Below the pieces are notes generated by a model. That model worked only from the letters and a program-made list of their open reading frames with translations, searched no databases and had not been told where the DNA came from. Shown here piece after piece: positions 4,509 through 20,834 of a stretch of 33,842 nt of DNA. The stretch is from assembly GCA_903861185.1 (NCBI GenBank), contig CAIOTK010000075.1:1-33842 (forward strand), written 5' to 3'. Made by a program: the position numbers and the translations under genes. Position 1 is the stretch's first letter, and each line of letters starts with the position of its first letter. This DNA comes from an uncultured Opitutia bacterium. Its GTDB lineage: Bacteria; Verrucomicrobiota; Verrucomicrobiia; Opitutales; Opitutaceae.

Positions 4509-5504
4509 TCACACGGTTTCCGCCGAATAGCGCCGGGCAAGCGCGCCGGCGGTCGCGGCGAGCCGGCGCCGGAGTTCGGGTGGGCGGAGCACCTCCGCGT
4601 CGGCCCCCCAGGAGAGGATCCAGCCGGCCACCTCGGCCAGCGCCCCGAGGCGGAGCGTGAGTTCGATGCCGCCGTCCGGGAGCGGACGCAGTTCCTGAGA
4701 CTCGTGCCACTCGCGCTCACGCACCCGGTCGGCGACCGCGGCGGAGAAACGCACGACTACCCGGAAGTTGCCGGCCCCGCCGAGCACCCCTAGTGCGGAG
4801 GCGAAAAAGCGCTCCGGGGAAAAGTCGGTCGGCCGCGTGAACTGGGCGTTGAGCACCGTCACGCCTCCGATGCGGGGTAGCGCAAAGGTGCGGAGGGCGT
4901 CGCGCTCGGGATCGTGGGCGACCAGATACCAGAGATTCTCGCGGTGCGCGAGGTGGTAGGGTTCGACGCGGCGGCGGGCGGCGCGGGATTCCCCCGGTTT
5001 GCGGTAGTCGAATTCCACCGCCCGCTGGCGGAGGACGGCGCGGCTGAGGGCGTTAAACACGGCGAGGTCAGCCCGGCCAAGCCCCGTGTTGCGGAAGGAG
5101 ACCGACTGGAGTTCGTCGGCCGGCGAAAATGAGATCCGGTCCTTGAGTCCGCCCGTAAGCTTGTCGAACGAGGCCTCCAGCTGCCGGTGGAACGGGGTGC
5201 CACGGTACTGTTCGAGGGCCTTGCGGGCGACAAGGAGAGCGAGTAGTTCGCCCTCGGTGACGTTGACGGTGGGAAACGCGGTGACGGGATTCGTGTAGCG
5301 GTAGGCGTTGATCAGTGGGTCAAACTCGACCGGGAGATCGAGCCGGTCGCGCATGAAGGCGATATCGCGCACGATCGTCTTCCGAGAGACCTCGAGGGTG
5401 GCGGCCAACTTGGTGCAGTTGGTGAGCGCGCCACGGCGCAGTTCCTCGTGGATCCGTAGCATCCGCTCCATCGGGGGCCGGGACGTGTGATAGGGAGCGG
5501 GCAT
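4509..5504 (-). CDS. WYL-domain transcriptional regulator (YafY-like, HTH_11/DeoR-type N terminus)
   Basis: A 331-residue DNA-binding regulator. The N terminus (about residues 12-70) is a winged helix-turn-helix, with recognition helix around LEVSRKTIVRDIAFMRDRL. The middle holds the WYL domain: YHLAHRENLWYLVAHD (about 183-198) and FALPRI nearby. The C terminus is a WCX-like domain with alternating strands and an arginine-rich last helix. WYL domains sense small ligands or nucleic acids in many regulators; the ligand here is unknown. The gene is divergent from the amino-sugar operon starting at 5574, and a perfect odd palindrome at 5533-5551 lies between the two starts, the usual place for an operator controlling both. 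The ATG at 5504 is used; a second ATG at 5471 begins just at the HTH and is possible. Confidence 0.88.
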   Translation of the reverse strand: MPAPYHTSRPPMERMLRIHEELRRGALTNCTKLAATLEVSRKTIVRDIAFMRDRLDLPVEFDPLINAYRYTNPVTAFPTVNVTEGELLALLVARKALEQYRGTPFHRQLEASFDKLTGGLKDRISFSPADELQSVSFRNTGLGRADLAVFNALSRAVLRQRAVEFDYRKPGESRAARRRVEPYHLAHRENLWYLVAHDPERDALRTFALPRIGGVTVLNAQFTRPTDFSPERFFASALGVLGGAGNFRVVVRFSAAVADRVREREWHESQELRPLPDGGIELTLRLGALAEVAGWILSWGADAEVLRPPELRRRLAATAGALARRYSAETV

Positions 5505-5532
5505 CGGACGCAGCCGGACAGATTTCTTTGGC

Positions 5533-5551
5533 TGGGACAAGCTATGTCCCA
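5533..5551. promoter_or_regulatory. 19-bp palindrome in divergent intergenic region, candidate operator
   Basis: The sequence is TGGGACA-AGCTA-TGTCCCA: 7-bp arms that are exact reverse complements around a 5-nt centre. It lies 29 bp upstream of the WYL regulator start and 22 bp upstream of the ATG at 5574. Arm length, spacing and position fit a dimeric regulator binding site; binding by the neighbouring WYL protein is an inference. I found no second full copy elsewhere in the window by eye. Confidence 0.6.
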
Positions 5552-5573
5552 CCCGGCTGGTAATCTCCGGGCT

Positions 5574-6206
5574 ATGAACACGACCCGCCGCGCTTCCGGC
5601 CCCGTCACCGCCCCCGGTTCCCTGCACTGGATCCACGATGGCTACCGCCACCGAGTCACCGCGTGGCCCGAGGCGGCCTTCCATCGGGAGGTGATCCCCG
5701 GCCGGTGGGAAGCGGAGGACCCGTCCCCCGGCGCACTGGCCTCGGCGGCGCTCGGTGTAGGTGGGGCGGCTTGGCGGCGTTTCCTCGAGTTCGTCCCGCC
5801 CGAGGTGCGCGGGTTGCTCCAGCGCCACACTCACGGGCGGATGGCCGCCCTGCTGGTCGCGGTGCGTTGTCCGGACCTGATCCCAGAGCTGCAGCAGACG
5901 CCGGTATTCGCGGCCTTCCTTGCCGCGCACCCCGAACTGCGGGGCGGCGGCGCCGCGGCGTGGGCTGAAATCTCGGCGGTGCACGGGCGAGAGGGGGCCT
6001 TTGGGCTCCTCCAATGGCTGGGCCTGCCGGCGAGCCGCCAGGCGCTCGCCATTCTGCGTAAGGTGGCTGAGCCGGACCTCCCGCCGCGGCTCCTCGCGCC
6101 TCTCCGCGCGTCTCTGTGGGAGCCCGCTGTCCGCTCGCAGCTCGCGCGGGTGCCCGCCCTGGACGACGAGGAATTGTTCCTCGCCTGCCACGCGCTCGCG
6201 GCCTGA
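5574..6206 (+). CDS. Hypothetical protein, first gene of amino-sugar operon
   Basis: I do not recognise this 210-residue protein. It has no signal peptide, no obvious membrane segment and no familiar catalytic motif. It begins with a small polar region containing HWIHDGYRHRVTAWP, then becomes alpha-helical with many Ala, Leu and Arg residues, ending in DDEELFLACHALAA. The frame continues upstream to an ATG at 5544, but that start would overlap the palindrome at 5533-5551, so the ATG at 5574 is preferred. The stop is 40 bp before the kinase-NagB gene, which suggests co-transcription. The absence of stops, the helical pattern and the divergent regulator support a real gene. Confidence 0.7.
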   Translation: MNTTRRASGPVTAPGSLHWIHDGYRHRVTAWPEAAFHREVIPGRWEAEDPSPGALASAALGVGGAAWRRFLEFVPPEVRGLLQRHTHGRMAALLVAVRCPDLIPELQQTPVFAAFLAAHPELRGGGAAAWAEISAVHGREGAFGLLQWLGLPASRQALAILRKVAEPDLPPRLLAPLRASLWEPAVRSQLARVPALDDEELFLACHALAA

Positions 6207-6246
6207 ACCGAAAACGCGTGTTGCGCCGGCCGCGGCGAGGCCTTGG

Positions 6247-9200
6247 ATGGAACGGATGCCCTCCGCGACCATCGACGCCGCCGCCCTCCGCTCGGTCGCT
6301 GCCGCCTTTCGTCTGGGCGGGACCTACTGCGGCGGGGCGCCGTACGGTAACGGCCATATCAATGACACGTTCGCCGTAACCTTTGAGCAGGGCGGCGTTT
6401 CTACCCGCTACATCCTCCAGCGCATCAACGAGCACGTCTTCCGCGACGTGGACGCCGTGATGGCCAACGTGGCGCGGGTTACGGCCCACGCTGGGCGGCG
6501 CGCCCTGGCCGCCGGGGTGACTGACCCGCAGCGGCGCGTCCTTACGCTGATCCCGACCCGCGGGGGAGAAAACCTGTTGCGAGATGCGTCCGGCGCCTGG
6601 CGCTGCTATGTTTTCATTGCGGATGCGACCTCACACGACGTAATCCGCGGGCCCGAGATGGCGCGGGAGGCAGCCCGCGCGTTCGGGGAGTTCCAGCGGA
6701 TGCTCGGCGACCTGCCCGGGGAACGCCTGCGCGAGACGATCCCGGATTTTCATCACACGCGGCGCAGGTTCGACGCCCTGATGCGCGCCGCCGCTGAGGA
6801 CCGCCGGGGCCGGGCGGCGGGCGTCGCGACCGAACTCGCCTTTGTCCGGGAGCGCGAGCCGATGGTCGACCTTCTGCTGGACTTGCACGCCCGGGGCGAG
6901 CTGCCGGAACGCGTCACCCACAACGACACCAAGCTGAACAATGTCCTAATCGACGACCGGACTGGCGCCGGGCTTTGTGTCATCGACCTCGACACGGTGA
7001 TGCCGGGGCTGGCGCTCTACGATTTCGGAGACTTGGTGCGTTCGGCGACGAACGCCGCGCCCGAGGACGAACGCGATCTGGCCCGAGTGCGCGCGCGGCC
7101 GGAGATCTTTGAAGCGCTAGTCGAAGGCTACCTTGCGGGCACCGGTGGGTTACTCAACGAGGCCGAGATCGGGCAACTCGCGTTCGCGGGCCGCCTGATC
7201 ACCCTCGAGATTGGGATGCGCTTCCTCACCGACCACCTCGAGGGCGACGCCTATTTCCGCATCCATCGCGAGGGCCACAATCTCGACCGGGCCCGCAGCC
7301 AGTTCGCCCTCGTGCGAAGTCTGGAGGAGCAGCGTGAAGCGATGGAGGCTGTCGTCCGCCGTCTCGTCGCGCGTTCCCGTCGCGATTCCCCCGCCACCGC
7401 TTCCGCCCCCATGATCCCCACCTCCAGCGAATCCCAGCAACGCGAGCGCATCGCGACCGAGATATTCCCGGGTGCCGACGCCGCCTGCAGCCGGCTGGCG
7501 AGCGAGATCGCCGACCTCATCCGCAGCAACGATCGCGCCGGGAAGCCGACTGTGCTTGGCCTTGCTACTGGCTCCACTCCGGTTCGCCTGTACCGCGAAC
7601 TGATCCGCCTGCACCGCGAGGATGGGCTGAGCTTCCGCAACGTCATCACGTTCAATCTCGACGAATACTACGGGCTACCGCGCGAGCATCCGGAGAGCTA
7701 CTGGCGCTTCATGCACGAGCAGCTCTTTAACCACCTCGATATCCCGGCCGCCAACGTGAACGTCCCGAACGGCACGGTTCCTCGTGGAGAGGTGTTTGCT
7801 TGGTGCCGGAGTTACGAGGATCGGATCCGGGCTGCCGGCGGGCTCGATCTTCAAGTGCTCGGCATCGGCCGCACCGGCCACATCGGTTTCAACGAGCCCG
7901 GCTCCAGTCGGGAGTCGCGCACCCGCCTCGTCACCCTTGACGGGCTCACGCGGCGCGACGCCGCCCGTGACTTCCTCGGCGAGGCCAATGTGCCCCGCCA
8001 CGCGATTACGATGGGCGTCGGCACCATTCTCGACGCGCGGCGGATCGTGCTGCTCGCCTGGGGTGAGTCGAAGGCCGCCGTCGTCGCCGCCGCGGTTGAA
8101 GCGCCGCCGTCTGATGCTCTGCCGGCTAGTTTCCTGCAAGGGCATCCGCAGGTACGATTCCTGCTCGACGAGGCAGCTGCCTCCGCGCTCACCCGGGTCC
8201 GCCATCCTTGGCTCGTCACCCCGGTCGAATGGCGGCCGGCCCTCGCTCGCCGTGCGGTGATGTGGCTCTCTCAAACCGTCGGGAAGCCGGTGCTGAAGCT
8301 TCTCGACGAGGATTACAGCGAGCACGGGATGGCGGATCTCCTCACCGAGCAGGGACCGAGCTACGGGCTGAACATCAGGATCTTTAACGAGATTCAGCGC
8401 ACGATCACCGGCTGGCCCGGCGGTAAGCCCAACGCGGATGACAGCTCTCGCCCGGAGCGGGCGCTGCCCTTCCCCAAGCGGGTGGTGGTCTTCAGTCCGG
8501 AGCCCTCCCACGACGTGCTCGGGATGGGGGGCACGCTGCGCCGCCTCAAGGATCAGGGCCACGACGTTACGGTGGTGTACCTGACGTCCGGCAATCTCGC
8601 GGTGCCCGACGAAGAGGCGGTGATGGCGGCGGATCTCGTGGGCGACATTGCGGAGACGCTCGCGCGTTCGGAAGGACCAGTGGCGGAGTTTGCGCGCACC
8701 ACCCGGAAGGAACTTCTCGAGAAGGCCGCGTTTGCTGCGGACTCGGCCTCGATCCGCCGGCTGAAGGGCCTCCTGCGCCGTGGTGAGGCGCGCGCCTCGC
8801 TGCGGGACTGCGGTTATGCCGCGGGCCAGGCGCGTTTCCTCGACTTGGCGTTCTACGAGCGCGGACGTTACCGGCAGTTCGCCCCCGGGACGGAAGATGT
8901 GGCGGCGGTCGCCGCCCTGCTGCGGGAGCTGACCCCGAACCAGATCTTCCTGACGGGCGAGCGGGATGACCCCACGTCGATCACCGCAGTCGGCTACCAA
9001 CTGCTCCGGCAAGCGTGGCGGCAGGTGGCGGCCGAGGCGTGGACTAAAGATTGCCGGGTCTGGGCTTACCGCGGGGTGGAGCAGCCGTGGGAGGCGGCGG
9101 AAATCGAAATGGCGGTGCCACTGAGTCCGCGCGAATTGGCGCAGAAGATCCAGGTCGTCTTCCACCACAAGTCGCAGCGGAGCCAGACCCCCGTGGCCGC

Positions 9201-9324
9201 CGGACTCCGCGAACCCTGGCAGCAGGCGGAGCAGCAAAACCGCGCGCTGGCGGCAAATTACGACAAGCTCGGGCTGGCCGACTACGAGGCCCTCGAAGGA
9301 TTCTCCCGCGCTCGGCTCGACTGA
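6247..9324 (+). CDS. Fusion protein: NahK-like sugar kinase + glucosamine-6-phosphate deaminase (NagB) + PIG-L-like domain
   Basis: One uninterrupted 1025-codon frame joins three modules. Residues 1-375 resemble N-acetylhexosamine 1-kinase of the aminoglycoside-phosphotransferase superfamily: YGNGHINDTF (33-42), YILQRIN (55-61), catalytic loop THNDTKLNN (224-232, Asp227) and metal-binding VIDLDT (245-250). Residues from about 389 form NagB: ATGSTP substrate loop, FNLDEYYGL with the proton-relay Asp, and GIGRTGHIGFNEP (about 539-551). NagB converts glucosamine-6-phosphate to fructose-6-phosphate plus ammonia. From about residue 743 comes a PIG-L-like domain as in long NagB proteins, but the metal motifs are changed: SPEPSHD where SPHPDDD is expected, and DDPTSITAVG where DPHGTH is expected, so this domain is probably not a deacetylase. 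An in-frame ATG at 7411 could start a separate 637-residue NagB; no Shine-Dalgarno precedes it, although most genes here also lack one. The kinase and NagB families are well recognised; the physical fusion is what the sequence shows. Confidence 0.88.
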   Translation: MERMPSATIDAAALRSVAAAFRLGGTYCGGAPYGNGHINDTFAVTFEQGGVSTRYILQRINEHVFRDVDAVMANVARVTAHAGRRALAAGVTDPQRRVLTLIPTRGGENLLRDASGAWRCYVFIADATSHDVIRGPEMAREAARAFGEFQRMLGDLPGERLRETIPDFHHTRRRFDALMRAAAEDRRGRAAGVATELAFVREREPMVDLLLDLHARGELPERVTHNDTKLNNVLIDDRTGAGLCVIDLDTVMPGLALYDFGDLVRSATNAAPEDERDLARVRARPEIFEALVEGYLAGTGGLLNEAEIGQLAFAGRLITLEIGMRFLTDHLEGDAYFRIHREGHNLDRARSQFALVRSLEEQREAMEAVVRRLVARSRRDSPATASAPMIPTSSESQQRERIATEIFPGADAACSRLASEIADLIRSNDRAGKPTVLGLATGSTPVRLYRELIRLHREDGLSFRNVITFNLDEYYGLPREHPESYWRFMHEQLFNHLDIPAANVNVPNGTVPRGEVFAWCRSYEDRIRAAGGLDLQVLGIGRTGHIGFNEPGSSRESRTRLVTLDGLTRRDAARDFLGEANVPRHAITMGVGTILDARRIVLLAWGESKAAVVAAAVEAPPSDALPASFLQGHPQVRFLLDEAAASALTRVRHPWLVTPVEWRPALARRAVMWLSQTVGKPVLKLLDEDYSEHGMADLLTEQGPSYGLNIRIFNEIQRTITGWPGGKPNADDSSRPERALPFPKRVVVFSPEPSHDVLGMGGTLRRLKDQGHDVTVVYLTSGNLAVPDEEAVMAADLVGDIAETLARSEGPVAEFARTTRKELLEKAAFAADSASIRRLKGLLRRGEARASLRDCGYAAGQARFLDLAFYERGRYRQFAPGTEDVAAVAALLRELTPNQIFLTGERDDPTSITAVGYQLLRQAWRQVAAEAWTKDCRVWAYRGVEQPWEAAEIEMAVPLSPRELAQKIQVVFHHKSQRSQTPVAAGLREPWQQAEQQNRALAANYDKLGLADYEALEGFSRARLD

Positions 9325-9335
9325 TTTCGCTTCCC

Positions 9336-10732
9336 ATGCTTCCGCTGGCCCCTTCGCTCCGGCCCTCCCTCGAACGAGACTTTGTCCCTGCCGCCCTCTG
9401 GAACCGTGCCTACCGCGCTCTTGTCGATGCGGATCCCGGATCCCGCCCCTTCGCGCTCGCGCTCCGCGCCCCGGGCGGTGCGGTTTCGCGCTATGACAGC
9501 CGCGTGCTCGGGTCTAACCATCCGCGGGCGACGCTGACCCTACTCTACGCCGAGCGCCTGCTGAAGTTCCTGTTGTGGCAGCGGGGCGGTTGCCACGTCT
9601 CCGTGGGCGGGGCGGATGAGGTGGCCCGCCATCTTGCGGCGGTTTATGCGCCGAGCGGCGCGCGGGCCTTCGACCACGCGTTTATGGGTGAACGCACTTA
9701 CCGGGACCCCTTCAGGGTCGAGGCTTGTCCGCTCGCCGAGCTCCCCGCCGAAATGGTCGCCGCCTTGCCGGTCGGCCGTCACCTCGACGGCTGCCGGATC
9801 GGGTTCGACCTCGGTGGAAGTGACCGCAAGGCCGCGGCGGTTATCGATGTCGGGTGGTATATTCGGAGGAGATCGCGTGGGACCCCTATTTCCAGCAGGA
9901 TCCGGCGTATCATCTCGAGGGCATCCACGATTCACTCACCCGGGCGGCGCGCCATTTACCGCGGGTGGACGCGATCGGCGGCAGCGCCGCCGGCATCTAC
10001 GTGAACAACGAAGTTAGGGTCGCCTCCTTGTTCCGAGGTGTGCCCCCCGCGGCCTTCGATGCTCAGGTGCGACGGATGTTCTTCACCCTCCGCGAGCGCT
10101 GGGGCGGCGTGCCCTTCGAGGTCGCCAACGACGGGGAGGTCACGGCGCTCGCCGGTTCGATGAGCCTCGGCGATGGCGCCGTACTGGGCATCGCGATGGG
10201 CACGAGTCTGGCGGCCGGCTACGTGACCCCCTCGGGCGGTATCACTCCGTGGTTGAACGAGCTCGCGTTCGCGCCGATCGACTACCATCCCGACGCGCCG
10301 CGCGACGAATGGTCAGGGGACGCGGGTTGCGGCGTGCAGTATTTCTCTCAGCAGGCGGTCGGCCGCCTGGCGCCCGCGGCTGGGCTCGAGTTCCCCGCCG
10401 GCCTACCCCTGCCCGAACAATTGGTGCGGGTGCAGGAGGCGATGGCGGCCGGGGATGAACGCGCTGCCCGGATCTACGATTCAATCGGCATCTCCTTCGG
10501 CTACGCGATCGCGCACTACGCGGATTTCTATACCCTGCGACACTTGCTGGTACTGGGCCGAGTGACGTCGGGCGCTGGCGGCGATTTGCTGCTGCAACGC
10601 GCCCGCGAGGTCCTTCGCGCTGACTTTCCCGAACTCGCCGCGCGAGTCCGACTGCACACTCCGGACGAGAAGGACAAGCGCCACGGGCAGGCCATCGCTG
10701 CCGCCAGCCTACCCGCCCTCCGTAACTCCTGA
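9336..10732 (+). pseudogene. ROK-family (ASKHA fold) protein, frameshifted
   Basis: Two overlapping frames together encode one ROK-family protein. The first frame starts at ATG 9336 and runs well into the phosphate-binding strand GFDLGGSDRKAAAVID, then turns into unrelated sequence and stops at 10004. The homologous continuation (VVYSEEIAWDPYFQ) begins in another frame at about 9854 and runs to 10732, with IGGSAAG, NDGEVTALAG and the second phosphate loop GIAMGTSLAAGY. The span is 1397 nt; one added base near 9849 gives 465 codons plus stop and a sensible junction (D-G-R-V-V-Y). A single-base deletion, real or from sequencing, explains this. The CXCGXXGC zinc motif of classical ROK sugar kinases is absent and there is an N-terminal extension of about 140 residues, so the activity is uncertain. 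It lies 11 bp after the NagB fusion and 8 bp before the PIG-L gene. Confidence 0.82.
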
Positions 10733-10740
10733 TCCTTTCG

Positions 10741-11592
10741 ATGAAGCTCTTCCAGCCCCAGGCCGACATCCTGTTCCCCGCCGAGCACTCGAACGCCGAA
10801 ACGGCGCTCTCTCGGGTGACGCACCTCTGCCTCGGTGCCCATCAGGATGATATCGAGATTATGGCCCACGCGGGCATCAGCGACTGCCTCGAGCAGCCGG
10901 GGCTCGCCTTCGGCGGCGTCGTGGTCACCAACGGCGCGGGTTCCCCGCGCACCGGTCCCTATGCCCATCTCGATGACGCGCAGATGCAGGGCGTGCGTCG
11001 CGAGGAGCAGCGTGCCGCCGCGCGATTGGGACGTTACGCGATTCAGCTCCAGCTCGCCCATCCCAGCAGCGTCGTGAAGTCGCCCGGGCACCCCGGCGTT
11101 GCTGCCGACCTCGACCTGATCTTCGGGGGCTGCCAGGCGCAGGTCGTCTATCTGCACAACCCCGCCGACAAACACGACACCCACGTCGCGGTCTTTCTGC
11201 GGTGCTTGGAGGCACTCCGCCGCCTGCCTCCTGCTCGCCGACCCCAGCGGGTGCTGGGCTGCGAGGTTTGGCGGGACCTCGACTGGTTGGTCGACGCCGA
11301 CAAGGTCGCGCTCGATGCGGGTCGCCATCCTGCCCTAGCCCTCGACCTGCTCAAGGTCTTCGACTCCCAAGTCGCGGGCGGCAAGCGCTACGACCTCGCC
11401 ACGGTTGGTCGCCGGCAGGCGCACGCGACGTTCCACACCTCGCACGCGACTGACCGGATGGCCGGCATTACTTGGGCGATGGATCTGACCCCTCTGGTCC
11501 AAGACTCTGCTTTGTCCCCAGAGGCGTATGCGCTGGGCTACCTGGAGCGACTCCAGACGGACGTGCGCGACCGGATCCGGCGTTTCGCCTGA
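10741..11592 (+). CDS. PIG-L family deacetylase
   Basis: A 283-residue member of the PIG-L/LmbE zinc-dependent N-deacetylase family, which removes acyl groups from N-acetylglucosamine-containing substrates. The first metal motif is AHQDDIE (His34, Asp36, Asp37) and the third ligand region is NPADKHDTHV (His145, His148). There is no signal peptide, so it should act in the cytoplasm. It follows the ROK gene by 8 bp in the amino-sugar operon. No nagA-type deacetylase is in the window, so this enzyme may supply deacetylated amino sugar to NagB; that is an inference. Its last 125 bp overlap the convergent membrane-protein gene. Family assignment is firm, substrate unknown. Confidence 0.9.
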   Translation: MKLFQPQADILFPAEHSNAETALSRVTHLCLGAHQDDIEIMAHAGISDCLEQPGLAFGGVVVTNGAGSPRTGPYAHLDDAQMQGVRREEQRAAARLGRYAIQLQLAHPSSVVKSPGHPGVAADLDLIFGGCQAQVVYLHNPADKHDTHVAVFLRCLEALRRLPPARRPQRVLGCEVWRDLDWLVDADKVALDAGRHPALALDLLKVFDSQVAGGKRYDLATVGRRQAHATFHTSHATDRMAGITWAMDLTPLVQDSALSPEAYALGYLERLQTDVRDRIRRFA

Positions 11593-11932: not shown

Positions 11933-12047
11933 GCGTTCTTGCTGGCTGCGCGGGGCCTACGAGGCCAAGGCAAAAACGGGGTGACGGACACCCTTTGGCG
12001 TGGACGCCGCCCCCGGGCGAGCCACGCTCGCACAAACCCCGCGACCG

Positions 12048-13382
12048 ATGCGTTTCCCGCTATTCCTGCTTCCGCTGCTGCTCCTACCCGTAATCGCCTC
12101 CGCCCCGGTTGGCGAAGCGCCCCGCTGGTACAAGGGCAACACCCACACCCACTCGCTGTGGAGCGACGGGGATGACTACCCGGAGATGATCGCCGACTGG
12201 TATAAGCGCGCCGGTTATCACTTTCTGGCGCTCTCGGACCACAACATCCTCTCCGAGGGCACCCGCTGGTTCGAGTTAAAGGCCCCGGTCTCCCTAAAGG
12301 GTGAGGTGGTGCAGCGCGGCGGCGGCGAGGTACTCCAGAAGTACCTGCGGCGCTTCGGGCCGGACTGGGTGGAACTGCGCGAGAACGCGGGGCGCCGCGA
12401 GGTGCGGCTGAAGCCGCTGTCGGAGTTCGCGCCGCTGCTGAACGAACCCGGCAAGTTCCTGCTGATCCCCGCGGAGGAGATCACCGGCGCTTGGACGCGG
12501 CCGAAGTCCGACACGGCTCCCGCGCTCACCGGTCCGGTCCACATCAACGTGACCAATCCCCGCGACCTCGTTCCCGCGGTCAACGCCGCGGACGCGGTGA
12601 CCGTGATGCAGCGCACCCTTGAGGCGGTCGATGCCCAGCGCACGCGCACCGGCCAGCCAATGTTCGCCCATCTCAACCACCCGAACTTCCGCTGGGGCGT
12701 GACCGCCGAGGAGATGATGCGGGTCGAGCGACTGCGTTTCTTCGAGGTCTACAACGGCCATCCCGGCGTCGAGAACGCGGGAGACGCGACGCGCCTCAGC
12801 ATGGACGCGATGTGGGACGCCATCCTCGCGTTCCGGCTCTCCGAGCTGAACTTCGGCGTTGTCTACGGCGTAGCCACGGATGATTCGCACCACTACCACA
12901 AGGTTGGTCCCGGTCGGAGCAGTTCCGGGCGCGGCTGGGTAATGGTGCGGGCCCGGCACCTCACCGCGGAGTCGCTAATCCGCGCGCTGGAGGCGGGTGA
13001 TTTCTACGGCACCTCAGGGGTGACCCTGCGGGAGGTGGTGCGCGAACCGGGACGAATCGCCGTCGAGGTCGAGCCGGAGGCGGGCGTGTCCTATCGCATC
13101 CAGTTTATCGGCACCCGGCGTGGCTTTGACCGCCGTAGCGAAGAGATTGCCCCTCCCGCCGAGGAGAAACCGGCCCGCCGCACCCTCAACCACCGGCGTT
13201 ACAGCCCCGAGGTCGGAGCCGTGCTCGCCGAGACCAGCGGGGCAAGCGCGGAGTATCGCCTGAAGGGAGACGAGCTCTACGTCCGCGCGAAGGTAATCTC
13301 CTCGAAGCCCAAGGCGGATGGGAGCGTGCCCGGCGAGTGGGAGACGGCTTGGGTGCAGCCTGTCGTCGGCGCCCGACCCTAA
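12048..13382 (+). CDS. Exported PHP-domain protein (putative metal-dependent phosphoesterase)
   Basis: A 444-residue protein starting with a signal peptide (hydrophobic core about residues 4-18, probable cleavage after ASA or GEA). The mature part opens with PHP-domain metal motifs: NTHTHSLWSDGD (His33, His35, Asp40) and LSDHN (Asp64, His65). Further likely ligands are in LIPAEEIT, HLNHPNF and TDDSHHYH. PHP domains hydrolyse phosphoester bonds using two or three metal ions, but most known members are cytoplasmic; this one is predicted to be exported. About 100 residues at the C terminus look beta-rich and not part of the PHP core. The ATG at 12048 is chosen because it gives the signal peptide. 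The stop is 7 bp from the convergent sulfatase stop. The substrate is unknown. Confidence 0.82.
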   Translation: MRFPLFLLPLLLLPVIASAPVGEAPRWYKGNTHTHSLWSDGDDYPEMIADWYKRAGYHFLALSDHNILSEGTRWFELKAPVSLKGEVVQRGGGEVLQKYLRRFGPDWVELRENAGRREVRLKPLSEFAPLLNEPGKFLLIPAEEITGAWTRPKSDTAPALTGPVHINVTNPRDLVPAVNAADAVTVMQRTLEAVDAQRTRTGQPMFAHLNHPNFRWGVTAEEMMRVERLRFFEVYNGHPGVENAGDATRLSMDAMWDAILAFRLSELNFGVVYGVATDDSHHYHKVGPGRSSSGRGWVMVRARHLTAESLIRALEAGDFYGTSGVTLREVVREPGRIAVEVEPEAGVSYRIQFIGTRRGFDRRSEEIAPPAEEKPARRTLNHRRYSPEVGAVLAETSGASAEYRLKGDELYVRAKVISSKPKADGSVPGEWETAWVQPVVGARP

Positions 13383-13389
13383 CGAGCGG

Positions 13390-14823
13390 TCACTTCCGCG
13401 GCTGCTTCGTCTGCTTGGCGTCCGGATCGATCGCTCGCGGACGGTTGGCGGGGCCGGGTTTGGGGGCCGGGAGTTTGGCGAGTTGCGTACGGGCCTCCGC
13501 CAAGGTGGCCGCCAAGGCAGGATCGGCGACCCGGTTGTGGTACTCGTGAGGGTCGTCGGGACGCCAATAGAGTTCACGGCCTCGGGCGCCTCCGTCCCAC
13601 TCGGTGTAACGCCAACGCGGGCCGATTACGGTGCGGCCGGCTACGTCCGCCCGGCGCTCGACGTCGTAATGGTAGACGAGGCTGTAGGCGTGACTCCCGG
13701 TGTCCGCGGCCCCGAGCAGGGGGCGCAGGGAACGCCCCTCAAGGCCGGGCGGGCGGGGGAGACCGGCGAGGTCGACTAGCGTGGGGTAGACGTCGAGCAG
13801 TTCCACGGGGGTGGTCACCACCGTCCCAGCCGGAATGCCGGGCCCCGCCGCGAGCAATGGCACGCGCGTTGCGACGTCGAAGGCGGAGAGTTTTGCCCAG
13901 AGTCCGCCGTGGTCGCCTAGGTGGAAGCCGTGGTCGCTGAAGAGAACCACGAGGGTATTTTCGGTCAGACGAAGCCGGTCCAATTCCGCGAGGACTAAGC
14001 CCAACTGTTCGTCGATGAACGAGACGCAGGCGAGGTAGCCTTGAATGGCAGCGATTCTGGAGTCGGGCTGCGGGAACCCTGTCAATTCCGTCTGCAACGC
14101 GATTGGCGGCACGTTACGCAGGGGCGGTTCGGCGGGCAGCGGGATGCGGTCGGGTGGATAAAGATCGAAGAACCGCTGCGGGGCGGTCCACGGCAGGTGC
14201 GGTTTGTGGAAGCCGAGGGCGAGGAAGAACGGGCCGCCCGCGGCCGCTCGTTCCCCGAGTAACTGACGGATCCGACGCGAATTTAGGCCGTCCCGGGTGC
14301 GGGCGCCGTCAGAGCTGAGCACGTGGGCGCGGGGCCGGCCGTCGCCGCCGCCGTACCGCGCGTTCAGCGCGGCCTTTTCCTCGTCGTCCTCACCCGGGCC
14401 GTCTTCGTACAGGTCCCATGCGGCGGGATCACTGTTACGCACATTATGGAAGACCTTGCCCACGCCGCCCGTATAGTAGCCCTGGCGGCGGAAGTGTTCG
14501 GGTAGCAGCACGGCGTCCGGCAACGCGGTCCGCGCCGGGGTCGCGAGGATGTAGACGCCACTCGTCTCCGGCCGTCGCCCACTCAAGAACGAAACCCGGC
14601 TCGGGTTGCAGAGCGGGTACTGGGCGTACGCGCGTTCAAACCGGGCGCCACGGGCGGCCAAACGGTCGATAGTCGGGGACTGGACGTAGCCATGGCCGTA
14701 GGCGCCGAGCAGGGTGTTGAGGTCGTCAACCACGACCAGCAGCACATTCGGCCGCGAGGGTGCCGCCGCCCAGCCGGAAGCGAGGAGCAGGCCGAGCGGC
14801 AGCAGGCGCAGGAGGCGTTGCAT
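13390..14823 (-). CDS. Exported sulfatase (iduronate-2-sulfatase-like), third of three
   Basis: A 477-residue arylsulfatase-superfamily enzyme with a signal peptide (residues 1-21). The sulfatase signature is CNPSRVSFLSG: Cys72 is the residue converted to formylglycine and Arg76 is the conserved partner. Asp33-Asp34 in VVDDLN are metal ligands, GFHKPHLPW contains the substrate-side Lys/His, and FSDHGFHLGDHG holds the second metal Asp/His pair. This pattern resembles iduronate-2-sulfatases, which desulfate sulfated polysaccharides. The C-terminal tail is basic and low complexity (several Lys, Arg, Pro). The gene starts 11 bp after the second sulfatase gene stops and is the last of a leftward operon. 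No sulfatase-maturing enzyme is in the window. Confidence 0.93.
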   Translation of the reverse strand: MQRLLRLLPLGLLLASGWAAAPSRPNVLLVVVDDLNTLLGAYGHGYVQSPTIDRLAARGARFERAYAQYPLCNPSRVSFLSGRRPETSGVYILATPARTALPDAVLLPEHFRRQGYYTGGVGKVFHNVRNSDPAAWDLYEDGPGEDDEEKAALNARYGGGDGRPRAHVLSSDGARTRDGLNSRRIRQLLGERAAAGGPFFLALGFHKPHLPWTAPQRFFDLYPPDRIPLPAEPPLRNVPPIALQTELTGFPQPDSRIAAIQGYLACVSFIDEQLGLVLAELDRLRLTENTLVVLFSDHGFHLGDHGGLWAKLSAFDVATRVPLLAAGPGIPAGTVVTTPVELLDVYPTLVDLAGLPRPPGLEGRSLRPLLGAADTGSHAYSLVYHYDVERRADVAGRTVIGPRWRYTEWDGGARGRELYWRPDDPHEYHNRVADPALAATLAEARTQLAKLPAPKPGPANRPRAIDPDAKQTKQPRK

Positions 14824-14834
14824 CGGAGGGATTT

Positions 14835-16307
14835 CTAGCGGGGGAGAGCGCCGCGCCAGCCCGCCCGCCATTGGCCCATCAGACGGTCCACGAGGGCCTT
14901 CTGCCCCGGCTCGCCCGCAAGATTCTGGTTCTCCTGCGGGTCGGCCTGATGATCATAGAGTTCGATGGCCTCTACTTTGACTTGGTCGCCACGATCAACC
15001 CAGACGGTGAAACGGTGGCGGTCGGTCCGCATCGAATAGCCCATCAGGTTACGTCCGCCGTTCGGGCGCGGATATTGGCTGAAGGCGGCGGTTTTCCACG
15101 CGCGATCCGGCTGTTCCAGCACGGGCTTGAAACTGAGGCCCTCGAGGTGACTAGGCAGCGGCAAGCCGGCCAGATCGGCCAGCGTGGGGTAGATATCGAC
15201 GAATTCCACTAGCGCCCGCGATTTGGCCCCGGCCGTGCCGAGCCAAGGTGCGGAGAGTAGGAGCGGGGCGTTGGTGTCGTTCTCGGAGTTGGAGTGTTTG
15301 CACCAAGCGTCGTGCTCCCCGAGTTTCCAGCCGTGGTCGCCCCAGAGTACGATGATGGTATTTTGCCGGAGGCCCTGCCGCTCGAGTTCGTCGAGCACGC
15401 GGCCAAGCTGGGCGTCCATATAGCTGATCGCGGCATAGTAGCCGTGCTTGAGCTGCCGGGCGAGGTCATCGGGGATCGGGCCCTCGGGAATTCCGTGGTA
15501 GGACCGCAACTCCCCGCCGGGGAGAATCGCATACTCCGGAGCCCCGCGGGGCCGAAACCGGTTGGGCGCGAGGCTGATCTTCGCCGGATCGTAGAGATCC
15601 CAGTACTTCTTAGGCGCCACGAAAGGGAGGTGCGGCTTGGAGAAACCCACGGCGAGGAAGAAGGGGGCGCCCTTTTTGCCCAGCTCGCGCAGGGTCTCCA
15701 CCGCGAGCTCTGCCGTCCTGCCGTCGGTATAGTAGTTGTCCGTGACGTCCGCTGATTCAAAGGCCGGACCGCGGGGGCCCTTCGCCGCCTTGCGGGCGGC
15801 CTTGCGGTCACCGGGCGGGACGACCGCCGGCGCCCGTTGCGTCAGCGCGACGTTTTCGGGGCGCGCGTAAGCGCCATTGGCCCGCGGGGTCTGCCAGGGT
15901 ACGGACCAGGTGGGTACATCGTCGAAGCCACCGTGGAAGATTTTGCCCATTCCCTGCACGAAGTATCCGTTTTGCTTAAAGTGCTGGCCGACGGTCACGA
16001 CGTCGGGCAGCGCCTTGCGAAAGTGCGTCTCGAGATCCCAGACCTTGCTGGTGTCGGGGCGGGTGCCCGTCATTACGACGGTGCGGGAGGGGGAACAGAC
16101 CGCCTGCTGGCAATAGGCGCGCGTGAACGTCACGCCCGAGCGGGCGAGGCGATCGAGGTTGGGGCTGTGCACGTGGCCCGCGCCGTAAGCGCCGAACTCG
16201 GGTCGGAGGTCATCGACGGCGAAAAATAGCACGTTGGGCTTGGCCGGACGTTCGGCCGCGACGAGCGGTCCGCTCAGGGCAACGAGGATGGGAAGGAGGA
16301 GACGCAT
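14835..16307 (-). CDS. Exported sulfatase (iduronate-2-sulfatase-like), second of three
   Basis: A 490-residue sulfatase with a signal peptide ending near ...PLVAA (about residue 18). The active-site signature is CSPSRTVVMTG with Cys71 as the formylglycine precursor. Metal ligands are visible in FAVDDLRPEFGAYG (Asp32-Asp33) and LWGDHGWKLGEHD. GFSKPHLPFVAPKKYWDLY matches the iduronate-2-sulfatase-type substrate region. The ATG at 16307 is used; an upstream ATG at 16332-16334 would overlap the preceding sulfatase stop but is possible. It lies 13 bp after the first sulfatase and 11 bp before the third, so the three are probably co-transcribed. Unlike its two neighbours it has no long basic tail. 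Confidence 0.93.
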   Translation of the reverse strand: MRLLLPILVALSGPLVAAERPAKPNVLFFAVDDLRPEFGAYGAGHVHSPNLDRLARSGVTFTRAYCQQAVCSPSRTVVMTGTRPDTSKVWDLETHFRKALPDVVTVGQHFKQNGYFVQGMGKIFHGGFDDVPTWSVPWQTPRANGAYARPENVALTQRAPAVVPPGDRKAARKAAKGPRGPAFESADVTDNYYTDGRTAELAVETLRELGKKGAPFFLAVGFSKPHLPFVAPKKYWDLYDPAKISLAPNRFRPRGAPEYAILPGGELRSYHGIPEGPIPDDLARQLKHGYYAAISYMDAQLGRVLDELERQGLRQNTIIVLWGDHGWKLGEHDAWCKHSNSENDTNAPLLLSAPWLGTAGAKSRALVEFVDIYPTLADLAGLPLPSHLEGLSFKPVLEQPDRAWKTAAFSQYPRPNGGRNLMGYSMRTDRHRFTVWVDRGDQVKVEAIELYDHQADPQENQNLAGEPGQKALVDRLMGQWRAGWRGALPR

Positions 16308-16320
16308 GGGGCGGATGGGT

Positions 16321-18240
16321 TTAGTCGTTGGCATTCTTCCGTCGGCCCTTGGCCTTACGCGCGCCCTCGCCCTCCGCCGAGGGGGCTGGCGCGCCGGTCA
16401 GGTTCGCGATCTGCCGCGGAATATAGGAATCGTAGCGCTCGTCTGGGGCGGGCCCCACCGGGTTCATCGTGCGAATGACCTCGTGCAGCGGAGCGCCCTT
16501 GGGCCCGAGGGCTTCGACGGCGGCGAGGGCGGAGGTGGAGACGAAAAAGCCATTCTGCGCAGGCGGGAGGAGTTCGCGGAGCGCTGCCAGCGCCCCGGCC
16601 AGTTCCGCCGGGGGACCATCCTGCGCCAGCGCCTGCGCGGCCACGATCCGCACGAGGCGGGAGCCGTCCCGGAGCGCCTCCCGCAGGGGCCCGACTGCGA
16701 CGGTGACCGCGGCTGGGCCTCGCATCAGCAAGCCGAGCGCGGCCCAGTGGCGCACCGCGGAGTCCACGTCGCCGAGCAACTCCACCAGCCGAGGCGTCGC
16801 GGCCGGATCGAGGCCCGAGGCGAGGTCGGCCGCGGCGTAGATCCGGGCAAAAGGGAAGCGCGCCTCGTCGCGTGCGAGGTCGTAGGGCGTTGTACCCGTG
16901 GCGCGGCTATGGATCTCTCCCTCCGGCAGGAAGCCGATGTCGCGCACGCGTTCGGCGTGGCCGCGCATTTCCGCGCGCAGTCGTTCGAGGATAACGCGGT
17001 GGTCGGCCGAGCCGGCGAGGTTGCGCACCTCATCCCGGTCGCTCTGGAGGTCATAAAGCTCTTCTGGCGCCTTCGGCGTCCGCCAGAATAGCGACTGCGC
17101 CTCCGTGGCTTGGCCGGCGTCGAAGCGCGCGCGCCAGAGGCGCGTCGTCGGTGTCTGGAACTGGTAGTCGACCCGCTGCCCCTGCGAGACGTGGGGGTAA
17201 AAGTTGCGCAGGTAGACGTAGCGTCCGTCCGTGACACTCCGCACGGCGTCCATCCGCTCGTCCATCCGGCCGCGGGCGCCGTGCAGAAATGCTGGGCCGG
17301 TGACCTGATGCGGTCCGGCGAAGGCGTGCCCCTGCATCCACGCGGGCGGCTTAACGCCTGCGATGCTCAGCACAGTCGGCGCTAGGTCGACGAAGCTGAC
17401 CAGCCGGTCCGAGCTTCCGCCAGCCGCGTACTCTTTGGGCGCGAGTTGGCGCCACTTGGGCGGGAAATAGACGACCATCGGCACGTGCAGACCAGAGTTC
17501 GAGGGCCAGCGCTTGCTCCGCGGCATCCCGCTGCCGTGGTCCCCGTAATAAAATACGATGGTGTCGTCAGCGAGTCCTGCTGCTTCGAGTTCCCGGAGAC
17601 GCGCGCCCGCGTCGGCGTCGGCCTCACTCACTTTGTCATAGTACTGCGCCCAGTCTTGGCGCACCTCGGGGGTGTCCGGGTGGTAGGCGGGAATCCGCAC
17701 GCGCGCTGGGTCGGTGAGCGCCTGGTGGGGGCGGGTTCGGATCTGGCTTTCGTGGCTCTTGGTCGAGTTGAAGATGGCGAAGAAAGGCTTTCCGGCGGGA
17801 CGTTTGCGCCAGTGCGCTTGGCCCGAGGACTCATCCCACACGCCGTCCGGTTTGCGGAGGTTGTAATCTTCTTTGCTGTTGTTGGTCGCGTAGTAGCCCG
17901 CTTCGCGCAGAAACTGGGGGTACATTCGCTGCCCGGCGCCCATCGTCGCCATCGAGCGCATGTGCAGCCCTCCGCTGCTCTGGGCATAAAGGCCCGAAAT
18001 GATCACGGTGCGCGCCGGGGCACACACCGGATGCACTGACCAAGCGCGGCGGAAGATCATCCCCTTGGCGGCGAGGGCATCCACGTTGGGGGTTCGCGCC
18101 AGTGTGTCGCCATAACACCCCATCTCGATCCCGTGGTCCTCGCTCGTCAGCCAGAGGATGTTGGGATGCTCCGCGGCGACGGCAGAGAGCGCGAGGAAGA
18201 CAAACAGCAGGGCGCGGCGGGCGGGAGCGGGGAAGGGCAT
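16321..18240 (-). CDS. Exported sulfatase with C-terminal HEAT-like repeats (heparan N-sulfatase-like), first of three
   Basis: A 639-residue sulfatase with a signal peptide (hydrophobic core 10-22, ends AVAA). The signature is CAPARTVIISG (Cys73 formylglycine precursor). Metal-site motifs are LTSEDHG (Glu34-Asp35 region) and YYGDHGSGMPRSKRW, the latter typical of the heparan N-sulfatase (sulfamidase)-like group. The catalytic part ends near residue 460. It is followed by helical repeats (about 475-580) with HEAT character, for example LVELLGDVDSAVRHWAALGL, probably a protein- or glycan-contact platform. The last 20 residues are Lys/Arg-rich. A cluster of small inverted repeats sits directly upstream of the ATG. 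The agmatine deiminase gene ends 83 bp upstream on the same strand. Confidence 0.92.
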   Translation of the reverse strand: MPFPAPARRALLFVFLALSAVAAEHPNILWLTSEDHGIEMGCYGDTLARTPNVDALAAKGMIFRRAWSVHPVCAPARTVIISGLYAQSSGGLHMRSMATMGAGQRMYPQFLREAGYYATNNSKEDYNLRKPDGVWDESSGQAHWRKRPAGKPFFAIFNSTKSHESQIRTRPHQALTDPARVRIPAYHPDTPEVRQDWAQYYDKVSEADADAGARLRELEAAGLADDTIVFYYGDHGSGMPRSKRWPSNSGLHVPMVVYFPPKWRQLAPKEYAAGGSSDRLVSFVDLAPTVLSIAGVKPPAWMQGHAFAGPHQVTGPAFLHGARGRMDERMDAVRSVTDGRYVYLRNFYPHVSQGQRVDYQFQTPTTRLWRARFDAGQATEAQSLFWRTPKAPEELYDLQSDRDEVRNLAGSADHRVILERLRAEMRGHAERVRDIGFLPEGEIHSRATGTTPYDLARDEARFPFARIYAAADLASGLDPAATPRLVELLGDVDSAVRHWAALGLLMRGPAAVTVAVGPLREALRDGSRLVRIVAAQALAQDGPPAELAGALAALRELLPPAQNGFFVSTSALAAVEALGPKGAPLHEVIRTMNPVGPAPDERYDSYIPRQIANLTGAPAPSAEGEGARKAKGRRKNAND

Positions 18241-18323: not shown

Positions 18324-19406
18324 TCAGGCCGGTTGCTGCTGCGTCAGGCAGTGCAGCGTACCGAAGCCGAGCACAAGGTCGACTGCGTGGATGCCGACCA
18401 CCTGCCGGTCTGGGAACAGTTCCGCGAGCGTACCCAGCGCGATCCGGTCGTTCGGGTCGTTGAAGGTGGGGACGAGGACAAACGCGTTTCCGATGTAGAA
18501 GTTAGCGTAGCTCGCCGGCAGCCGCATGCCGTCGAAGATTTGCGGCCCGGGCATCGGTAGCGCGACCACATCGGGCTTAGAGCCGTCCTCCAGCCGCAGA
18601 TCCTGGATGCGCTCCCAGTTCTCGGCCAGCGGTCGGTAGTTCACGTCCCGGCGGTTGTCCTCGCGGATGAGCACCACCGTGCGGGGATTGACGAACCGGC
18701 AGAGGTCGTCGACGTGGCCGTGCGTGTCGTCGCCGACGAGCCCGTCGCCGAGCCAGAAGACGTTGGTCACCCCGAGGTTCGCCTTCACGACCCGCTCGAA
18801 CTCGGCACGCCCGACGCCGGGGTTACGCACCTGTACCTTGGGGTGAAGGTAGCACTCCTCGGTGGTGAGCAAGGTGCCGCGCCCATTCACGTCGATGCCG
18901 CCGCCCTCAAGGACGAACGGGGGGCCGTCTTCGCGCCTGGCCTCAAAGAGGGATTTACCCAAGCGGTGCGCCGCGATCTCCGGCACCCGACGGTCGTGCT
19001 GCCAGTCCCGGTACTTGGCCCAAGCGTTAAAATGAAAATGTACGATCGCCGTCTCGCGCCCCCGGCCGCGGGGGCGCTGCACGAAGATGGGGCCGCTGTC
19101 CCGGGTCCATCCGCGGTTGGTGCGGTGGAGGACGAACTCGACCCGCTTGAGGTCGACTTGCGCGCGGCTCAGCACCCGGCGGGCCTGGCGTTCCTCGCGG
19201 CGGTCATTAACCATAATGCGGACGATTTCCCCCGCCGTGAGCTTGCGCACCATCTCGCCGTAGACCCAGTGGATGGTGGAAAGCTTGTCCGGCCAGTCGG
19301 TCGGGTGATGAGGCCAGCCGAGCCAGGTGGCCTCGTGCCGCTCCCATTCGGCGGGCATTGCGAAACCAAGTTCGGCGGGGGAGGGGGCGGCAGAGGTGGT
19401 GGGCAT
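18324..19406 (-). CDS. aguA: Agmatine deiminase (peptidyl-arginine deiminase family)
   Basis: A 360-residue cytoplasmic enzyme that converts agmatine to N-carbamoylputrescine and ammonia, a step from arginine to putrescine. Family motifs are present: PAEWERHEATWLGWP at the start, WTRDSGPIFV (catalytic-site Asp), EGGGIDVNG, DDTHGHVDDLCRF with the catalytic His and Asp, and the C-terminal GTLHCLTQQQP with nucleophile Cys353. Length matches the family (about 350-370). It is divergent from the deoxyhypusine-synthase-like gene with a 162-bp gap. The next enzyme, N-carbamoylputrescine amidase (AguB), is not in the window. Bacterial porphyromonas-type peptidylarginine deiminases share the fold, but the lack of a signal peptide and the polyamine neighbours favour agmatine. 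Confidence 0.9.
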   Translation of the reverse strand: MPTTSAAPSPAELGFAMPAEWERHEATWLGWPHHPTDWPDKLSTIHWVYGEMVRKLTAGEIVRIMVNDRREERQARRVLSRAQVDLKRVEFVLHRTNRGWTRDSGPIFVQRPRGRGRETAIVHFHFNAWAKYRDWQHDRRVPEIAAHRLGKSLFEARREDGPPFVLEGGGIDVNGRGTLLTTEECYLHPKVQVRNPGVGRAEFERVVKANLGVTNVFWLGDGLVGDDTHGHVDDLCRFVNPRTVVLIREDNRRDVNYRPLAENWERIQDLRLEDGSKPDVVALPMPGPQIFDGMRLPASYANFYIGNAFVLVPTFNDPNDRIALGTLAELFPDRQVVGIHAVDLVLGFGTLHCLTQQQPA

Positions 19407-19568
19407 AGCGGCCGCGGATATGGAATCGCCACGCCTCAGGGCTCAAGCCCGGAACACGCGAGGGCGGCCGCCTCGCACGGTGGCCGGTAGGGTGCCCGGA
19501 TCGCTCCGCGCGCAAAAAGGTTTGCATGGGGGGCCGCGCCGGCCGATTTCATCGCCGCACAATCACTT
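19407..19568. promoter_or_regulatory. Divergent intergenic region between aguA and DHS-like gene
   Basis: This 162-bp gap must hold promoters for both divergent polyamine genes. I see GC-rich self-complementary stretches (GGCGGCCGCC at 19463-19472; GGGCT-CA-AGCCC at 19439-19450) but no convincing -35/-10 pair or operator. Confidence 0.35.
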
Positions 19569-20780
19569 ATGGCGCGCACCGAACGTCGGAACCTGAGGCA
19601 GCGGGAACAGCTTTTCGAGACCCCCGACTGGCTCAAGCAGAAGCAATGCCCCCACAAGGCTAAGTACATGGCCGGACCGCGGATCCAGCCGCGTAATATC
19701 ACCGGCAAGGAGCGGCTGCCGGACCTCATTGACGCTACCTTCCTCGCCTACAACGGCGCTCGGCTCCGCGAGGGCGTCCAGCTGTTCACGAACCGGATGC
19801 TTGAGCCCGACGTCACGGTCGGCCTCAGCGTTTCCGGTGCCCTCACGCCCGCCGGCCTCGGGTGCTCTAGCATCATTCCCCTCATCAAAGCGGGATTCGT
19901 GGACTGGATCGTCTCTACGGGCGCGAATCTCTACCACGATTTGCACTTCGCCCTGAACTTACCGGTCCACGCGGGCAGCCCGAAGTTCGACGACACCGAC
20001 CTGCGCGACAACGACCTCGTGCGGATCTACGACGTGGTTATCCCGTACAGCGACGGGCTGATGGCGACGGACGAGATTCTCCGGGAGATTATGCTCCAGC
20101 CGGAATTTCAGAAGGAGATGGGCACGGCGGAGCTCCATTACCTCATCGGCCGCTACGCCGCCGAGTGGGAGCGCAAGAACGGCCTGAAGGACGTATCCGT
20201 GATGGCCGCGGCCTATCGCGCGGGGGTTCCCTGCTACACCTCCTCGCCGGGCGACTCCACCATCGGTATGAATGTGGCGGGCGTGGAACTGCGCGGCAGC
20301 AAGCTGCGCATCAATCCCTCGATCGACGTGAACGAGACGACCAGCTTCGTCCTCGCCGCCAAGCGCGGCGGCGGCCGCAGCGCGGTCGTCCTCCTCGGCG
20401 GTGGCAGCCCGAAAAACTTCATGCTGCAGACCGAGCCGCAGATCCAAGAGGTGCTCCGGATCAAGGAATTCGGCCAGGACTTCTTCCTCCAGATCACTGA
20501 CGCCCGGCCGGACACTGGTGGCTTGAGCGGCGCGACTCCCTCGGAGGCGGTCTCTTGGGGCAAGGTCGACCCGGCCCGCCTGCCGGACGCGGTCGTTTGC
20601 TACACGGACAGCACGATCGCCCTGCCGCTAATGACCCACTACGCGCTCGCCCGCCGCAAGCGCCGCAAGCTCCGGCGGCTGTACGACCAGCGCGCGGCCT
20701 GCATGAAGGCGCTCACCCGGGAGTACTTCGCCCACAACAAGGTGAAGATGATCGACGGCTCCGAGCCGGATCTGAGCTGA
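19569..20780 (+). CDS. Deoxyhypusine synthase-like protein (putative homospermidine/triamine synthase)
   Basis: A 403-residue homologue of deoxyhypusine synthase (DHS), an NAD-dependent enzyme that transfers an aminobutyl group from spermidine to a lysine. The lysine that carries the aminobutyl intermediate is kept in [11 protein letters not shown] (Lys332, equivalent to human Lys329). Rossmann-type glycine-rich segments are [15 protein letters not shown] (about 84-98) and [13 protein letters not shown] (272-284). Bacteria lack the eIF5A substrate; plant homospermidine synthase evolved from DHS, and bacterial homologues are thought to act on free polyamines. Here residues that in human DHS bind spermidine appear replaced: the KHHI His aligns with Phe284 and the GSDSG Asp with Leu319. 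The neighbours, agmatine deiminase and an ODC-type decarboxylase, support polyamine synthesis, possibly from putrescine. Exact product unknown. Confidence 0.87.
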
Positions 20781-20834
20781 GCCCGCGCCGCTTTTGCCCT
20801 CCCGCGGGCCACCTCCGCGCGCCCGGCCTTCCTC

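Follow-up and report, generated by a model that had tools for sequence, protein, structure and literature searches.

A NahK-type kinase fused in frame to NagB–PIG-L in one genus of the Opitutaceae, with a single origin among amino-sugar operon neighbours

Why would a kinase resembling NahK, expected to phosphorylate C1 of N-acetylhexosamines (HexNAc), be joined in one polypeptide to NagB, which requires a 6-phosphate? This question is raised by a 33,842-nucleotide stretch of DNA from an uncultured Opitutia bacterium (contig CAIOTK010000075.1, assembly GCA_903861185.1; hereafter the window), in which a preliminary description had recognised a NahK-like kinase joined in frame to NagB. Positions 6247 to 9324 of the forward strand translate into 1025 residues with no stop, and we find that they form one continuous gene in which a NahK-type N-acetylhexosamine kinase is followed, after a disordered linker, by a NagB–PIG-L protein of the PRK02122 type. 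Pfam matched APH at residues 32-275, Glucosamine_iso at 410-632 and PIG-L at 748-908, while NCBIfam NF002557 (PRK02122) spanned residues 389-1022 with 819 bits against a curated cut-off of 384, in agreement with that description. The extent it gave also stands as an open frame, which reaches upstream as far as 5920, but which codon starts the gene is not certain: 10 of 10 aligned fused rows have Met4 (6256), whereas Met1 (6247) is found in some rows only. The genome that contains the window (G000; 4.02 Mb, 93.9% complete) gave one match to the fusion protein at E ≤0.001, so no NahK-like or NagB-like gene other than the fused one was found there. Our answer, towards which we lean without great confidence, is that the protein tethers two enzymes at the point where UDP-sugar (UDP, uridine diphosphate) salvage and catabolism branch, that it has no direct channel, and that it arose by a single fusion of operon neighbours.

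The kinase domain comprises residues 1-379 (6247-7383, forward strand; alternative start at 6256). In addition to the APH match, this half of the protein matched Bifidobacterium NahK at 2.1e-81 (phmmer; 4ocu/4wh1). An AlphaFold2 model of the fusion, based on a 64-row alignment, had well-folded domains with a mean predicted local distance difference test score (pLDDT) of 88; its predicted template modelling score (pTM) was a modest 0.61, so the model does not settle how the domains are arranged. The kinase part superimposed on B. longum NahK 4wh3 with Z 48.2 and a root mean square deviation of 1.5 over 356 residues at 41% identity, and the next kinase family by fold was homoserine kinase (Z 27.2). 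Residues D227, K229, N232, D247, D249, R325 and Y336 occur unchanged in all 40 kinase rows and align with NahK D208, K210, N213, D228, D230, R306 and Y317, which we take to be the catalytic Asp, the Mg-binding Asp and the sugar-contact residues of NahK.

The operon partners of the kinase in unfused relatives point in the same direction. The operon nucleotidyltransferase matched 3pnn at 8.2e-94 and, more weakly, uridine triphosphate-glucose-1-phosphate uridylyltransferases. The nearest structure to the operon epimerase was 6wjb, and it also matched the polysaccharide epimerases WbpP and WbgU; these enzymes presumably act on UDP-N-acetylglucosamine (UDP-GlcNAc) and UDP-N-acetylgalactosamine (UDP-GalNAc). 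Taken together, the invariant NahK residues and the nucleotidyltransferase and UDP-sugar-type epimerase partners argue for a C1 kinase that feeds UDP-sugars. Judged from sequence, the most likely reaction of the kinase domain is phosphorylation of GlcNAc/GalNAc at C1, which converts HexNAc to HexNAc-1-phosphate. The suggestion of a different kinase specificity is therefore unsupported, and the preliminary description was right that no two-step channel is obvious, because a C1 phosphate would not be the substrate of NagB.

The NagB (glucosamine-6-phosphate deaminase) domain (residues 402-654; 7450-8208, forward strand) was supported by Pfam, by a TIGR00502 match above the cut-off and by a fold match to 1dea with Z 34.3. 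D72, H143, E148 and K208 of E. coli NagB, which together with D141 we assume to have roles in the deaminase, correspond to D472, H545, E550 and K609 of the fusion, and all four were conserved in 29 of 29 rows. The C-terminal PIG-L/LmbE-like domain (residues 740-1025; 8464-9321, forward strand; Pfam PIG-L, 33 bits) keeps a BshB-like fold (6p2t, Z 21) and is under purifying selection. Its zinc/base motif is degenerate: the HPDD of PIG-L, presumably the zinc/base motif of active PIG-L/LmbE deacetylases, reads EPSH within SPEPSHD (residues 750-756; 8494-8514, forward strand), and the Bacteroidota and Balneolota rows of the alignment read SPHPDDD. E and S occupied the first and third HPDD places in 26 of 29 rows, HPDD was intact in the other three (L038, L039 and L042), and a later PIG-L His (H974) was conserved in all 29. 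Lacking its catalytic motif, this domain probably has a structural or ligand-sensing role. That it has stayed under purifying selection after the loss of the motif warns against annotating PRK02122 proteins as deacetylases.

Between the two enzymes lies a flexible linker (residues 380-401; 7384-7449, forward strand). Structure alignment ended the kinase fold near residue 378 and began NagB near 402, and residues 381-400 were disordered with pLDDT below 50. The linker is accordingly nearer 20-24 residues than the 14 or so first estimated. Among fused relatives its length varies by whole codons only, and its ratio of nonsynonymous to synonymous substitution rates (dN/dS) of 0.12-0.49 was above that of the domains, with little conservation. 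Within it, the ATG at 7411-7413 (forward strand; Met389) coincides with the start of unfused NagB–PIG-L and represents the ancestral NagB start codon, now internal. Seven of the nine fused species keep this ATG; the two that have lost it, G194 and G205, group as sisters in the kinase tree (support 98/89), and G205 has a GTG four codons past the lost position. The sequence upstream of 7411 is C-rich and has no purine-rich ribosome site. An ATGA does occur at 7411-7414, as had been noticed, although its reading as a former overlap between kinase and NagB may need to be revised. At the unfused locus L041, ATGA overlaps join kinase to epimerase (9101-9104) and epimerase to NagB (10024-10027), so the ATGA of the fusion may be a relic of an epimerase/NagB overlap instead.

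Of the 27 genomes of the genus that were searched, 9 (G000, G201, G211, G182, G081, G205, G203, G194 and G212) have an uninterrupted full-length frame, the eight other copies being 70-95% identical to that of the window. The junction is thus not an assembly error, and a break in the frame at 7411, by a stop or a shift, is not common to all relatives. Two further genomes of the genus (G104 and G006) encode the kinase and NagB–PIG-L as separate genes, 15 have kinase and/or NagB-like matches without a long NagB–PIG-L match, and G202, in which the match is restricted to the last quarter of the fusion (residues 774-1025), cannot be judged. That the fusion is absent outside the genus is concluded from sampled genomes of the family, the order and the phylum, the E-value cut-offs for the latter two being our own choice, and from a set of contig loci. 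None of the 200 genomes in the family sample had an uninterrupted frame outside the genus, its four fused genomes all being of the genus; the order sample (372 genomes) had the fusion in G000 and G081 only, and the phylum sample (387 genomes) in G000 only. Among the matches listed from 80 GTDB contig loci, it occurred only in two, L031 and L032, the loci of G194 and G212. A plasmid search returned eight records with kinase matches, all below 60% identity. Several loci outside the genus that first looked full-length (L039, L040, L041, L035, L043, L044, L045, L065 and L066) proved to have separate genes, and G629 and G693 were rejected as fusions on account of stops between the kinase and NagB parts. 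Two of these loci, L043 and L044 from Kiritimatiellae, have two tandem NahK-type kinases followed by NagB, all as separate genes.

A kinase tree with 45 rows united the 10 rows of fused genes (nine species, two rows being identical) in one group with support 99/92, and no separate-gene row fell inside it. We conclude that the fusion has a single origin and has been kept as a protein of about 1020 residues in one Opitutaceae genus. Comparison of the window with L002, L003, L111 and L112 gave dN/dS values of 0.04-0.06 for the kinase, 0.04-0.06 for NagB and 0.03-0.05 for PIG-L, and comparison with L031 and L115, for which synonymous sites are near saturation, gave 0.18-0.21, 0.12-0.13 and 0.10-0.18, respectively.

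Gene order was compared across 34 listed loci. As the preliminary description had supposed, kinase and NagB are separate genes elsewhere, and unfused relatives share an operon: the order nucleotidyltransferase, kinase, epimerase, NagB–PIG-L was found in the family loci L035, L121, L122, L123, L124, L125 and L134. Consecutive genes overlap via ATGA in L041, which is on the same contig as L134; L126 keeps the order minus the epimerase; and some operons of unfused relatives also carry a ROK-fold kinase and PIG-L. In G104, within the genus, the kinase adjoins NagB–PIG-L, from which a stop and a change of frame separate it, and the locus has neither epimerase nor nucleotidyltransferase. This genome is the expected intermediate between the operon and the fusion, and the loci provide an ordered series, from four-gene operon to adjacent genes to fused gene, for the formation of an enzyme fusion. 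In the fused clade the epimerase has been lost and the nucleotidyltransferase has moved away from the locus; a relative of the latter (64-69%) is encoded elsewhere in eight of the nine fused genomes and is missing in G201, which is 70% complete. In G000 an Amidohydro_1 protein is encoded upstream of the relocated nucleotidyltransferase.

Two genes downstream of the fusion may be relevant to the supply of a NagB substrate. A ROK-fold sugar kinase-like gene (9336-10732, forward strand) has, in this assembly, a frameshift near 9848 that leaves pieces in two reading frames at 9336-10004 and 9854-10732; it is uninterrupted in L002, L003 and L031. The 464-residue L031 copy had no Pfam or NCBIfam match, and its model (pLDDT 85.8) was nearest to N-acetylmannosamine (ManNAc)/GlcNAc 6-kinases with Z 24, with Foldseek agreeing on ROK proteins; the protein also has an N-terminal extension of about 150 residues. 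This protein is a candidate for the step that brings in the 6-phosphate required by NagB. Next comes a stand-alone PIG-L gene (10741-11592, forward strand; Pfam PIG-L, 1.2e-10) whose translation has an intact HxDD motif (GAHQDDIEIM) and which had no match in the PDB by sequence. A stand-alone PIG-L gene follows the fusion or NagB–PIG-L in several relatives, and the ROK-like gene and then the stand-alone PIG-L follow the fusion in L127, L128, L129, L132 and L031.

These findings suggest a model in which a single fusion joined two genes that lay side by side in an amino-sugar operon. HexNAc would enter two routes: one begins with phosphorylation at C1 and leads to UDP-sugars, and the other runs through phosphorylation at C6, deacetylation and deamination to fructose-6-phosphate. 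The N-terminal domain would convert HexNAc to HexNAc-1-phosphate, from which the nucleotidyltransferase encoded elsewhere would form the UDP-sugar, and the NagB domain would convert glucosamine-6-phosphate (GlcN-6-P) to fructose-6-phosphate; 6-phosphorylation would be left to the ROK-fold kinase and deacetylation to the stand-alone PIG-L of the same cluster. As to NagA, two TIGR00221 matches in G000 scored 197 and 157 bits, below a cut-off of 225.65 that was exceeded in 2 of 14 genomes, and we do not claim that NagA is absent from G000. The fusion would thereby tie the first enzyme of the C1 route to the last enzyme of the C6 route, holding kinase and NagB on a flexible tether in a 1:1 ratio at the UDP-HexNAc salvage/catabolism branch, where they would catalyse non-consecutive steps. 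Probably no substrate passes directly between the parts, and the likeliest benefit is equal dosage or cross-regulation at the branch point. The frame, the clade, the predicted folds, the conserved residues and the history of the operon are observed, and from them we infer all of the activities and the benefit of tethering.

Several observations weigh against a tethered enzyme of this kind. The position of E. coli D141 is T543 in the fusion, which leaves the deaminase activity of the NagB domain, as read from its sequence, not certain; T was found in 29 of 29 PRK02122 rows, including those of Bacteroidota and Balneolota, and therefore marks the subfamily and not the fusion, and stand-alone NagBs had D or N in eight of nine listed, with T in L062. 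In a quick tree of PRK02122 (NagB–PIG-L), the branch that has all fused rows on one side was weakly supported (30). A frameshift breaks the ROK-like gene in this assembly, and L130 and L032, which are from one species, have no ROK-like gene or stand-alone PIG-L within the stretch examined. Moreover, the best epimerase relatives in fused genomes were only 38-43%, with no close copy of the operon epimerase, and epimerase loss together with nucleotidyltransferase relocation could mean that the role of the kinase has changed in the fused clade.

One alternative is that the kinase phosphorylates C6 of GlcNAc or glucosamine, so that the two domains would catalyse consecutive steps from amino sugar to fructose-6-phosphate. 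The fusion itself and the departure of epimerase and nucleotidyltransferase from the locus fit this idea, and APH-fold 6-kinases of glucosamine exist. We nevertheless consider it improbable, given the similarity to NahK (41% identity, Z 48), the unchanged catalytic and sugar-contact residues in 40 of 40 rows, the nucleotidyltransferase retained in eight of nine fused genomes and the ROK-fold kinase encoded next door. Similarly, there is little to recommend a scheme in which GlcNAc-1-phosphate from the kinase is fed to GlcN-6-P and NagB, for example via a mutase docked on the decayed PIG-L domain; if true, it would be a new route for C1 phosphates into catabolism.

A stronger competitor, possible though doubtful, is a neutral fusion in which the epimerase gene was lost and then the kinase stop, leaving independent halves whose expression the tether only equalises. 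The single origin in the kinase tree, the disordered and little-conserved linker and the lack of a fixed domain arrangement in the model would all be expected in that case. Retention of the fused gene across species down to about 70% identity, loss of the junction ATG in two of them and the lack of separate-gene rows in the fused clade are harder to reconcile with it. Finally, the preliminary description had raised the possibility of a separate NagB–PIG-L product from the ATG at 7411, in which case two proteins would be made. Although this ATG equals the unfused start and persists in seven of nine fused species, the missing purine-rich site before it and its loss in G194 and G205, even with the nearby GTG of G205, make such a product very unlikely. 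We retain the tethered bifunctional enzyme as our working model.

Other genes of the window are recorded here as observations. Immediately upstream of the fusion, 4509-6272 encodes, in the divergent orientation, a 587-residue WYL/WCX regulator-like protein, a candidate regulator. A gene without a Pfam match at about 12000-13382 has a translation that holds a PHP-like NTHTHSLWSDGD stretch. Three sulfatase genes with SGSH_C-type C-termini (13390-18240, reverse strand) suggest breakdown of sulfated glycans near the fusion, and the peptidyl-arginine deiminase-type (PAD_porph), deoxyhypusine synthase-like and ornithine/arginine decarboxylase-type genes at 18324-21986 are possibly a polyamine cluster.

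Among the papers listed by searches of open-licence PMC literature, judged by title and the opening of the abstract, there was none on a kinase–NagB fusion and none on NahK in Verrucomicrobia; the fusion is a new domain architecture built from known families. A study of bifidobacteria describes a regulator, NagR, that co-controls NahK (lnpB), the ROK kinase gene nagK, nagA and nagB (PMC9599254). Because lnpB shares one regulon with nagK, nagA and nagB, co-regulation of the two halves of the fusion has precedent without a shared metabolite. According to the same study, no prokaryotic enzyme has been described for conversion of GlcNAc-1-phosphate to GlcNAc-6-phosphate (PMC9599254), and the fusion thus brings together two branches with no established link between them. 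Fused and unfused versions of the proteins lend themselves to direct comparison in assays.

Among known systems, Bifidobacterium NahK/LnpB (4wh1-3, 4ocu) shares with the fusion the whole kinase fold, the catalytic motifs and 41% identity, and differs in that the fusion kinase is joined to NagB–PIG-L. A review assigns NahK, together with GalE and GalT, to the lacto-N-biose pathway (PMC8106489). Like the lnp cluster, the relatives' loci combine the kinase with a nucleotidyltransferase and a UDP-sugar-type 4-epimerase, but their nucleotidyltransferase has the NTP_transferase fold and is not GalT-like. Residues 389-1022 are a full-length member of PRK02122/NF002557, from which the fusion is set apart by its N-terminal kinase; its PIG-L motif is degenerate, a trait of other Opitutaceae too. 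With GlcNAc/ManNAc kinases (7p9l, 2yhy; Z 24) the downstream gene shares the ROK fold, but it differs from them in carrying the extension of about 150 residues and in having no Pfam or NCBIfam match. AmgK-MurU is a pair of an APH-fold anomeric amino-sugar kinase and a uridylyltransferase. As a general likeness, it too couples an anomeric APH-fold kinase with a nucleotidyltransferase, although the closest solved structure to the fusion kinase by sequence is NahK.

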